Shown piece by piece: positions 8,121 to 10,888 of a DNA stretch of 64,000 nucleotides (position 1 is the first letter of the stretch; each line of letters starts with the position of its first letter). The translations under genes were made by a program, and so were the position numbers. Source of the stretch: Waterburya agarophytonicola KI4 (GTDB lineage Bacteria; Cyanobacteriota; Cyanobacteriia; Cyanobacteriales; Xenococcaceae); assembly GCF_020640915.1 (NCBI RefSeq), contig NZ_JADWDC010000015.1, positions 1-64,000 on the forward strand, written 5' to 3'. The notes under the pieces were generated by a model that worked only from the letters and a program-made list of their open reading frames with translations, searched no databases and was not told where the DNA came from.

Positions 8121-10888
8121 TTGTCTCATACTATTGCCACTGATATCTGTGAAGGAGTAGCAGATTGCGTTGATGCTTGTCCCGTTGCTTGTATTCATGA
8201 TGGACCAGGAAAAAACACCAAGGGAACAGAATGGTATTGGATAGGTGCGAACCGTTAGTCTTAAATGGGTCTAAGTACCCAGGGAAAGACTGCTAACTGT
8301 AAAAAAATATTACGAACGTAACAAGAATTAACAGTTAGACAACTTAAGGTTCGTGTTGGTGAGGGTAACACCCAAGTCCAACCCCCTGGATGCAAGGGTG
8401 AAAGCGCATCCCCATTAATTAAGGTGGTATCTCTAATTGATGAAGCGGGATGTTAAAAGGTGGTAACTCAAAACCTGATTGGGAATCCCATCGAAGCAGC
8501 TAACTATGAGTAGAAGACGAACTTTCGTTTGAATCGTCGTAATACCAGACCAGCCAAAACAGGTTGTTAGGCTGGGAACAAAAGTTCACAAGGTTAAAGA
8601 ATAAGTACTCGAACTTACTTATTTTCAAGGGAAACAGATCTATCCTTGTTTCCTGGCATCCATAACAAAACCTTCGGCGAATAGAAAGACTCTAAAGTTA
8701 GAAACCAACGAATCTTAGGAACGGTGTAACCTCTGTAAGGCTCTCATCTTGGTCGAATAAGTTGAGTAGTAACCAGCGCAAGCCTTACAAGGGAAGGATA
8801 GAGTCAGAAGCGAATGTCTGGGGTAATGCCCAGGATATGCTGACAGACTCACGATGAGATGAAAGATAAAGTCTGTAGTAAAAGTAAAAAAGTCATGAAC
8901 ACGGCAAAACCGATGTATGAATGGAATACCCTCCCCTGGCATCAGCTAGACAAGCAGGTATTCAAGCTTCAAAAAAGAATTTATCAAGCTTCTGAACGTG
9001 GAGAAGTCAAAGTAGTACGCAGACTCCAAAAACTTCTGATTAGCTCATGGTCAGCCAAAGCAGTCGCAGTCAGGAAAGTCACACAGGATAACCAAGGAAA
9101 GAAAACTGCTGGAGTTGATGGAATTAAAGCCCTCACTCCTTACAAAAGGATGAAACTGGTCAAAAATCTTCAAATTGAAGATAAATCTAAACCTACCCGT
9201 AGAATTTGGATACCAAAACCAGGAAAAACCGAAAAAGCGGATACGACCCCGTGCCGACGTAAGGCGCAAGACAAAGGCTTTAGCCGCATGTACGCGCACC
9301 AAGCACGCCCTTTAGAAATACCTAGCATTTATGAAAGAGCTAAACAGGCTCTGGTAAAAATGGCTCTAGAACCAGAATGGGAAGCAAAATTTGAGAGCAA
9401 CTCGTATGGATTTAGACCAGGACGTTCCTGTCATGACGCAATTGGAGCAATCCATAAATCACTGGCGCAAAAAGCAAAATATATCTTAGATGCGGATATA
9501 TCTAAATGCTTTGATAAAATTGACCATCAAAAACTATTAGAGAAAATAAACACATCTCCCACGATAACTCGGCAAATTAAAGCTTGGTTCAAGTCGGGAG
9601 TAATCGACAAGGGTACATTATTTCCAACTAAGGAAGGAACGCCCCAAGGTGGCGTAGTTTCCACTTTGTTAGCCAATATAGCATTACACGGAATGGAAGA
9701 CCTCATTAGGAAATCGTTCCCTGATAGAAATGGCTACAAAAATGGAAAGTATTGGAGTATTCCAACACCAAACCTAATACGATATGCGGAAGACTTTGTA
9801 GTCTTACATAAAGACATCGAAGTGGTCAGACAGTGTAAATCTTTAATAGAAACATGGCTAAAAGATATAGGACTAGAGTTAAAACCAGAAAAAACTCGAA
9901 TAAGCCACAGTCTCGAAGAATACGAAGGAAACACAGGATTTGATTTCTTAGGTTTTCACATCCAGCATTACCGTGCAGGAAAGTACAAATCAGGACGTAG
10001 CTCACAAAGGAAACCGCTGGGTCACAAACTTCTAATAAAACCCTCAAAACAAAGTATTAAAAAACACCTAACGAAAATTGAAGATGTAATTGATAAACAT
10101 CGGGCATCTAAGACTGAGAAAGTTATTGGTCTGCTTAATCCGATTATCAGAGGGTGGTGCAATTACTTTAGAGGAGTAATCAGCAGTGAGACATTTAAAC
10201 TTCTAGACCATTTAACATATCTAAAACTCAGAAGATGGGCTAACAAAAGACACCCCAATAAAGGTAAGAAATGGGTTAAGAGTAAATACTGGAAATCCAT
10301 AGAAAATCGAAATTGGGTATTCTCGGAAACCTATAAAAATGAAGTTACCTATACACTAATTAACCACTCGGATACTAAAATTATTCGTCACGTTAAGGTC
10401 AAAGGAAAAAAGTCTCCTTATGACGGTGATTTCGTTTACTGGAGTCAAAGATTAGGCACATATCCAGAAACTTCTACAAGAGTAAGGACATTACTTAAGA
10501 AGGAAAAAGGTATATGTACAATTTGCAAGTTATCATTCACAAGCCAAGACATTCTAGAAGTAGACCATATCAAACCTAGAAGCCAAGGTGGAAATGATAC
10601 TTAAAAAAATCTGCAACTACTACATCAACACTGCCACGACAATAAAAACCGTCGAGATTATCTTGAATGGCATAAACAGAAGTATTCATGATAGGAATCA
10701 TCTCATTGAGGAGCGCAGTGACGAGAAATTGTCATGCTGCGTTCTGTAGTCGAGTTAAGAAGGCGACTTCTTAGCTTAGATAACATTTCTCTACCTGCAT
10801 TGATTGTGGAATTTGTCTACAAGTATGCCCTGTAGAGGGCGCGATCGTTCCCGATGAAAGACCCGATTTACAGAAGACACCGCAGTAG
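8121..10888 (+). CDS. Two-cluster ferredoxin interrupted by a group II intron (exons 8121-8244 and 10785-10888)
   Basis: Exon 1 (124 nt) starts at TTG 8121 behind AAAGGAGA and encodes MSHTIATDICEGVADCVDAC and onward to WYWI plus one base. Exon 2 (104 nt) supplies the rest, beginning with FSTCIDCGICLQVCPVEGAI and ending DLQKTPQ at TAG 10886-10888. Joined exactly at the intron ends, they give an uninterrupted 75-residue ferredoxin with the split codon G|AT for Asp. Cysteines form one C-x5-C-x3-C-x3-C group and one classical C-x2-C-x2-C-x3-CP group, as in 7Fe/8Fe ferredoxins, which carry electrons between soluble partners. Without splicing, translation would run into the intron and lose the second cluster. 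An extended -10-like TGGTAGAAT lies near 8070. The reconstruction is direct from sequence; splicing itself is inferred. Confidence 0.9.
8232..8244 (+). other. Intron-binding sites IBS2 and IBS1 at the exon 1 end
   Basis: TGGTATT (8232-8238, IBS2) and GGATAG (8239-8244, IBS1) abut the 5' splice site. They are exact reverse complements of AATACCA (8541-8547) and CTATCC (8640-8645) inside intron domain I. Confidence 0.85.
8541..8645 (+). other. Exon-binding sites EBS2 (8541-8547) and EBS1 (8640-8645)
   Basis: AATACCA pairs over 7 bp with IBS2, and CTATCC pairs over 6 bp with IBS1. The order (EBS2 before EBS1, about 90 nt apart in domain I) is as expected. No mismatch is present in either helix. 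Confidence 0.82.
8895..10604 (+). pseudogene. ltrA: Group II intron-encoded reverse transcriptase/maturase, degraded
   Basis: 569 codons from the ATG at 8895 (MNTAKPMYEWNTLPW), the usual start of cyanobacterial intron proteins. The RT domain (about 90-350) has YGFRPGRSCHDAI, LDADISKCFDKIDH and GTPQGGVVS. The maturase X domain follows (GLLNPIIRGWCNYFRGV), then the start of an HNH domain (CTICKLSF, VDHIKPRSQGG). Three lesions are visible. The catalytic YADD box reads YAED (Glu299). A 69-nt in-frame insertion splits RT block 1 between GKTEK and RPLEIP. A TAA at 10602 replaces the Tyr expected before KNLQLLHQHCHD, which is still encoded in frame up to 10691. DNA-directed mobility is probably lost; RNA-splicing help by the X domain may remain. 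Confidence 0.88.
9237..9305 (+). repeat. 69-bp in-frame insertion in the maturase RT domain
   Basis: Codons 115-137 (ADTTPC to YAHQA) interrupt the conserved RT-1 string that otherwise runs GKTEK-RPLEIP. The insert is visibly more GC-rich than its surroundings and contains imperfect complementarity between GTGCCGACGTAAGGC and GCCGCATGTACGCGCAC. It keeps the reading frame. It may be a small dispersed palindromic element; no second copy is seen in this window. Confidence 0.55.
10711..10744 (+). ncRNA. Group II intron domain V (domain VI follows to 10784)
   Basis: These 34 nt fold as an 8-bp lower stem (GAGCGCAG with CTGCGTTC), a 2-nt TG bulge, a 6-bp upper stem (TGACGA with TTGTCA) and a GAAA tetraloop, with the AGC triad in place. 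This is the canonical catalytic hairpin. Downstream, GAGTTAAGAAG and CTTCTTAGCTT form domain VI with a GCGA loop. A candidate branch-point A lies at 10778, 7 nt from the 3' splice site. Confidence 0.9.

Follow-up and report, generated by a model that had tools for sequence, protein, structure and literature searches.

Background

Group II introns that reside in housekeeping genes of cyanobacteria are already known (PMC4424553). Tery_4732, a conserved gene of Trichodesmium, carries a twintron whose splicing has been shown in vivo, as described in a section of PMC4649490. Degenerate intron-encoded proteins (IEPs) are known as well: O.i.I2 of Oceanobacillus iheyensis, located in radC, encodes an IEP that lacks the YADD motif and is presumed to act as a maturase only (PMC4424553). 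The same 2015 review names one bacterial intron with this sort of degenerate IEP, whereas about 30% of 1,949 representative bacterial IEPs are interrupted or lack domains according to a passage of a 2022 survey (PMC8919778), which speaks against rarity. For TeI4h, which has a natural YAGD, a passage of PMC2882425 gives a mobility of 0.067% at 48 °C, compared to 100% with YADD.

Here we analyse a cyanobacterial ferredoxin gene which is split by an element of this kind. We consider it likely that this is a horizontally acquired, splicing-dependent and probably immobile group II intron in a single-copy gene.

The interrupted ferredoxin gene

The window, by which we mean the whole stretch of 64 kb that was analysed, comes from a genome of 5.1 Mb (G000; 149 contigs, completeness 99.98%), and the GTDB genus of this host also contains Pleurocapsa sp. 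MO_192.B19 (G392). The ferredoxin gene and the ribozyme part of the intron comprise the following features:

8121..8244, + strand: 5' exon of the ferredoxin gene, beginning with the TTG start codon and ending with the first base of the Asp codon that is split
8232..8238, + strand: IBS2 (TGGTATT), 7/7 pairs with EBS2
8239..8244, + strand: IBS1 (GGATAG), 6/6 pairs with EBS1
8245..10784, + strand: group II intron, 2540 nt, GTGCG...AAC, in sense orientation
8541..8547, + strand: EBS2 (AATACCA), pairs with IBS2
8640..8645, + strand: EBS1 (CTATCC), in a predicted terminal loop
10711..10744, + strand: domain V (DV), a 34-nt hairpin with a GAAA loop and a 2-nt bulge
10749..10781, + strand: domain VI (DVI); the A bulged out at 10778 (seventh position counted from the 3' end) is the branch-point candidate
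10785..10888, + strand: 3' exon of the ferredoxin gene

Joining 8121-8244 to 10785-10888 yields a single ferredoxin ORF of 75 amino acids with a TTG start and a TAG stop, in which the Asp codon is split as G/AT. The first-pass annotation had claimed that removal of 8245-10784 restores a 75-residue two-cluster ferredoxin including the split codon, and this turned out to be exact to the base. The first position is TTG/Leu in all eight interrupted ferredoxin loci described below. The product matches Fer4 dicluster families and thus represents a small two-cluster ferredoxin of the bacterial type; a 7-Fe ferredoxin is found among its PDB matches. It is probably Fed8 (Ssr3184 type), an assignment based on size and cluster type. 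Fed8 is a [3Fe-4S][4Fe-4S] ferredoxin which is stated to be essential for photoautotrophic growth of Synechocystis in a passage of PMC4284462. A passage of PMC8887894 describes fx8 as not deletable, yet the same passage names a triple mutant including fx8.

A second copy of the ferredoxin was sought in all 149 contigs of the genome and none was found, the next best match having 44% identity over 27 residues. The electron carrier would therefore depend wholly on splicing, as had been supposed from the locus itself, and the proposed search for an intron-free copy ended negative. In line with Fed8 being widespread in cyanobacteria, 346 out of 388 genomes of the class have a match to this ferredoxin (E 1e-6); since 42 have none at this threshold, the ferredoxin is not universal. 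Twenty of these 42 genomes were listed, and at most ten of the twenty were searched again at E 0.01: one (G009) has a cut ferredoxin piece at a contig end, and the others gave only distant ferredoxin-like matches. Compared with its relative G396, in which the site is empty, the window ferredoxin shows a dN of 0.011 and a dS of 0.64 (dN/dS near 0.02), and it is presumably needed in the window host. In a promoter and terminator scan of the locus the number of sites was not above that of shuffled sequences, and nothing regulatory was seen.

Identification and structure of the intron

By its sequence and predicted fold the insert is a group II intron. It has the 5' GUGYG and 3' AY ends, a DV of about 34 nt with a GNRA loop and a DVI with a bulged A that define this class, and the sense orientation and the GTGCG and AC ends noticed by the first-pass annotation were confirmed along with DV/DVI and an IEP. 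Rfam at the gathering threshold reported only a tRNA and no group II match in the 64-kb window, and the intron was therefore identified by its IEP, DV/DVI, the EBS/IBS pairing and its relatives.

Six introns of the same lineage (see below) were compared. In their DV/DVI structure 99.4% of the cells are paired and the covariation score is 0.145, values which were each reached by 0/500 shuffles; two out of five measures were not above the shuffles, namely the pairs changed on both sides (70/500) and the further pair types (460/500). The shuffles ignore relatedness, and this control covers DV/DVI. For DI-DIII a consensus fold of 169 pairs was predicted, in 38 of which one or more sequences have changed at both positions without losing the pairing. 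Of the consensus pairs the window copy retains 166/169 and the other five introns 160 to 167, gaps being counted as lost. Together with the restored reading frame this suggests that the intron would be excised by splicing in the cell.

The pairing with the exons is complete in the window, which bears out the 7-bp and 6-bp helices that had been read from the sequence: EBS2/IBS2 forms 7/7 and EBS1/IBS1 6/6 pairs, and both EBS motifs occur only once within the intron. When the loci from all hosts are compared, EBS2/IBS2 is paired at 5 to 7 of 7 positions, and the EBS1 base opposite the third (wobble) base of the Ile codon pairs in seven of eight loci. These pairs (exon:intron) are A:U in the window and in G425, U:A in G398, U:G in G392, G650 and G430, and C:G in G456. 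The exception is the ferredoxin copy of G395 with a C:A mismatch in EBS1/IBS1; the second intron copy of this genome adjoins a U, and there EBS1 pairs. The fit at the wobble base over the eight loci was equalled by 1344/40320 permutations, which ignore relatedness.

The intron-encoded protein

8859..10604, + strand: IEP ORF, 581 amino acids when counted from the first ATG; the start common to the sister frames is the ATG at 8895
9237..9305, + strand: 69-nt in-frame insertion (23 amino acids) within the RT domain, immediately ahead of the RPLGIP-type motif
9783..9794, + strand: RT active-site motif YAED, which is YADD in 29 of 31 aligned IEPs
10602..10604, + strand: TAA stop cutting the HNH endonuclease domain, the rest of which continues in the same frame

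The IEP matches the profiles RVT_N, RVT_1 (9.4e-39), GIIM (2.2e-24) and part of HNH, and reaches 307.9 bits against the NCBIfam model group_II_RT_mat (cut-off 300). Its best PDB sequence match is 6me0, covering residues 20-580, which we take to be the IEP of TeI4h from Thermosynechococcus elongatus.

Several changes concern parts of the protein linked to mobility. The first Asp of YADD is replaced by Glu, and conserved residues of two further RT motifs are changed as well; among the 31 aligned IEPs the only other one that departs from YADD is that of G392 (YADH). HNH profile positions 1-29 of 47 are matched before the TAA stop, so the window copy lacks the complete HNH domain present in the sister elements. 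The 69-nt insertion is absent from the IEPs of G395, G398 and G650. It is related to a small dispersed repeat, which is matched over 55 nt with at most 96% identity in the genus relative G394 and at two shorter places in the window's own genome, and the IEPs of G392 and G425 carry other in-frame insertions in the same loop.

We counted departures at conserved columns, i.e. those conserved in 24 or more of the 25 IEPs from outside the lineage and in four or more of the lineage's five other members. The window IEP departs at 5/146 RT, 0/16 X, 0/12 D and 1/28 En columns, in addition to the En truncation, and the G392 IEP at 15/147 RT, 0/16 X, 0/12 D and 4/29 En columns; the numbers of X and D columns are too small for a test. 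The other four IEPs of the lineage depart at one to five RT columns. Because the intact-looking G650 also has five, it is not the count that singles out the window copy but the kind of residue. The intron copy at the ferredoxin locus of G392 is thus the second in this gene to look degenerate, with YADH, altered HNH residues, in-frame insertions and an open frame of 651 codons.

Between the window and G398 the dN/dS of the IEP is about 0.1 in every domain (RT 0.09, X 0.13), and no clear difference between the domains was found. As the RT value is as low as that of X, relaxed constraint on the RT is not supported, and the uniformly low values mean that the decay is recent or slight. Furthermore, Asp to Glu is a conservative change, by which the RT activity may be reduced and not lost. 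No other close copy of the intron was found in the window's own genome, the next best match being 74% over 275 nt; further near-identical copies are usual for active mobile introns, although they are not required. The window IEP would presumably work as a maturase, and the window copy probably is trapped, having lost its mobility.

The same site in other cyanobacteria

The first-pass annotation had proposed a comparison of the locus in related genomes, and this revealed the same junction at the identical nucleotide of this ferredoxin gene in seven other cyanobacterial species, which is more than chance. The exons are intact in all eight interrupted loci, those of G398 being taken from two contigs. 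Among 60 searched relatives 57 have the ferredoxin (E 1e-6) and six are interrupted at this place (the window genome G000, G392, G395, G398, G425 and G430); within the genus these are four out of 13 genomes. When 388 genomes of the order were scanned for the junction pattern, nine genomes gave a match, which in eight of them lies in this ferredoxin, adding G456 and G650; the ninth match, in a Rhopalodia endosymbiont (G384), is not in this ferredoxin. A pattern scan of genome contigs gave 26 stretches, 22 without a ferredoxin match and four with a ferredoxin exon: Pleurocapsa sp. MO_192.B19 (G392), Prochloraceae MO_167.B51 (G425), Crocosphaera sp. MO_188.B44 (G650) and Argonema antarcticum (G456). 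Since either scan recognises the exact pattern only, a host whose junction letters differ could have escaped. Three further genomes with two ferredoxin pieces are not intron cases: in G230 the pieces lie at contig ends, in G306 they overlap, and in G388 the second piece is a contig end overlapping the intact copy.

In an IEP tree of 34 rows the introns of the window, G392, G395, G398, G425 and G650 form one clade (100/100). The Argonema-type pair (G430, G456) is placed elsewhere, among introns of other sites, and the IEP identity between the two lineages is 53-60%. Given the starred branches of this tree, the ferredoxin-site label must have changed two times or more, therefore the site was hit at least twice, and the two lineages rule out that all eight hosts inherited a single ancient intron.

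In G395 and G398 the sister elements keep YADD and their HNH region is not interrupted by a stop; in both genomes the element also occurs at additional positions. In G395 the second copy of the same intron (L178, 4376-6825, - strand) lies within a gene that shows a match to a ParE-like toxin-antitoxin domain in its 5' exon, and the reading frames are open on either side of the intron. Of the four intron 5' ends in G398, three lie elsewhere than in this ferredoxin. Intron ends stand there beside at least three further ORFs (L179, L180, L181, L182, L183), and the shared contig C86 holds the intron body. To us these adjoining ORFs look like an acyltransferase, a TniB-type AAA-ATPase and a SnoaL-like protein.

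Vertical descent or horizontal spread

The divergence of the IEP was compared with that of GlmU, which is one gene only and in whose tree the genus is poorly resolved. Between G000 and G425 the IEPs are 78.5% identical versus 66.3% for GlmU, and between G000 and G398 the dS is 0.62 for the IEP versus 1.58 for GlmU, the ferredoxin dS being saturated. Other pairs show a lower identity for the IEP than for GlmU (G000-G392: 74.6 and 82.8; G000-G395: 80.3 and 83.9; G392-G395: 70.9 and 89.1). The closest relative of the window by ferredoxin, G396, has an empty site and shares part of one downstream gene; it has no GlmU match, so its placement rests on the ferredoxin locus. G198, the sister of G398 in the GlmU tree, has an empty site as well. 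The intron is thus less diverged than its hosts in the key pairs, and for two hosts the site is empty in the nearest relatives sampled, which argues for horizontal retrohoming; for the key pairs G000-G398 and G000-G425 purely vertical descent of the main lineage is ruled out. The extra copies in G395 and G398 and the relatives with empty sites would fit a recent retrohoming.

Evaluation of possible explanations

According to the explanation we prefer, a mobile group II intron would have entered the single-copy, probably Fed8-type ferredoxin gene by horizontal retrohoming, reading through EBS1 and EBS2 base pairing a target which encodes the conserved Trp-Tyr-Trp-Ile-Asp of the ferredoxin. The folded ribozyme, assisted by the maturase, would remove 8245-10784 and rejoin the split Asp codon, and the gene would thereby be rescued. 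Later the window copy would have lost its mobility features (YADD to YAED, the two further RT motifs, the HNH stop), whereas the fold of the ribozyme, its pairing with the exons and the conserved domain X columns would have been retained. An ordinary intron that is spliced and still mobile, in which YAED keeps enough RT activity and mobility is lowered, but not abolished, by the missing end of HNH, appears rather unlikely to us. Such activity would agree with the conservative nature of the Asp-to-Glu change, with an IEP frame that is open and under purifying selection overall, and with the YADD, the uninterrupted HNH region and the extra places of the sisters in G395 and G398, but YADD is kept by all other aligned IEPs except that of G392, the natural YAGD of TeI4h allows hardly any mobility in the passage cited above (PMC2882425), and a second close copy is missing from the genome.

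It is very improbable that the insertion killed the gene, in the sense that the intron is no longer spliced well and that the ferredoxin is either dispensable or decaying as a pseudogene: although the IEP is partly degenerate and 42/388 genomes of the class have no match to the ferredoxin, both exons are intact with a dN/dS near 0.02 versus G396, the exons are intact in the other interrupted loci too, the ribozyme is paired as well as in its relatives, and Fed8 is reported as essential in Synechocystis in the part of PMC4284462 mentioned above. We give hardly more than nominal weight to a regulatory switch, in which the splicing efficiency would set the ferredoxin level according to conditions. 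The total dependence of the gene on splicing and the presence of two intron lineages at the same nucleotide could speak for it; the patchy occurrence (four out of 13 genus genomes) and the close relatives with empty sites fit homing better than selection, and the promoter and terminator scan showed nothing regulatory. Post-transcriptional control through splicing, which the first-pass annotation had suggested, thus found no backing, as nothing points to regulated splicing. Finally, several host records are metagenome bins, and an assembly or binning artefact might have joined the intron to the ferredoxin gene. This is ruled out by the same junction in several assemblies, among them a 4.5-Mb contig of G395 and the record of Argonema antarcticum, which is not marked as a MAG, and the junction sequences differ between the species, as those of separate genomes would.

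Beyond the trapped, horizontally acquired intron preferred here for the window, we tentatively suggest, as a possibility somewhat short of probable, that introns land recurrently at the Asp codon which follows Trp-Tyr-Trp-Ile. Separate lineages would settle there and lose their mobility, the ribozyme and the maturase would be held by the need of the host, and the exon wobble base and EBS1 would co-adapt.

Comparison with known systems

In the open-licence literature on cyanobacterial group II introns we found no report of an intron in this ferredoxin gene, and the word ferredoxin has no occurrence in the main text of PMC8919778 and PMC4649490. Apparently new are this ferredoxin as a host gene, two intron lineages that share one insertion nucleotide, and the variety of states encountered at a single site. 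In the proposed path by which selfish group II introns gave rise to organellar and spliceosomal ones, losing mobility after settling in a needed gene is one step. As one gene position shows empty sites, YADD copies and altered copies (YAED, YADH) in related species, the order of events is open to RNA and mobility assays.

Like the twintron in Tery_4732, described in a section of PMC4649490, the window intron belongs to the group II introns in conserved cyanobacterial genes; unlike this twintron in an RNase HI-associated gene, it is a single intron, predicted from sequence, in a ferredoxin gene. With TeI4h it shares the cyanobacterial host and a natural change of YADD, and the TeI4h IEP (YAGD) still supports splicing according to a passage of PMC2882425, but in contrast to TeI4h and its relatives in Thermosynechococcus elongatus the window intron resides in a conserved single-copy gene. 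O.i.I2 is likewise a bacterial intron in a host gene with an open IEP ORF and a degenerate RT (PMC4424553). However, the O.i.I2 IEP is of the ML class, with YADD and further motifs missing, whereas the window RT is less decayed and has YADD sisters at the same site.

The introns of plastids encoding MatK, or mat1a and mat1b in Porphyridium, also sit in or near a needed gene and have lost RT and endonuclease features while the maturase was kept (PMC4424553 and a passage of PMC4476101). They differ in being organellar and vertically inherited after the loss of mobility, while the hosts of the window lineage are bacteria and the acquisition was apparently recent. If the reading as a recurrent landing site is true, this ferredoxin codon would represent a bacterial replay, with several stages in related species, of organellar introns becoming splicing-only.
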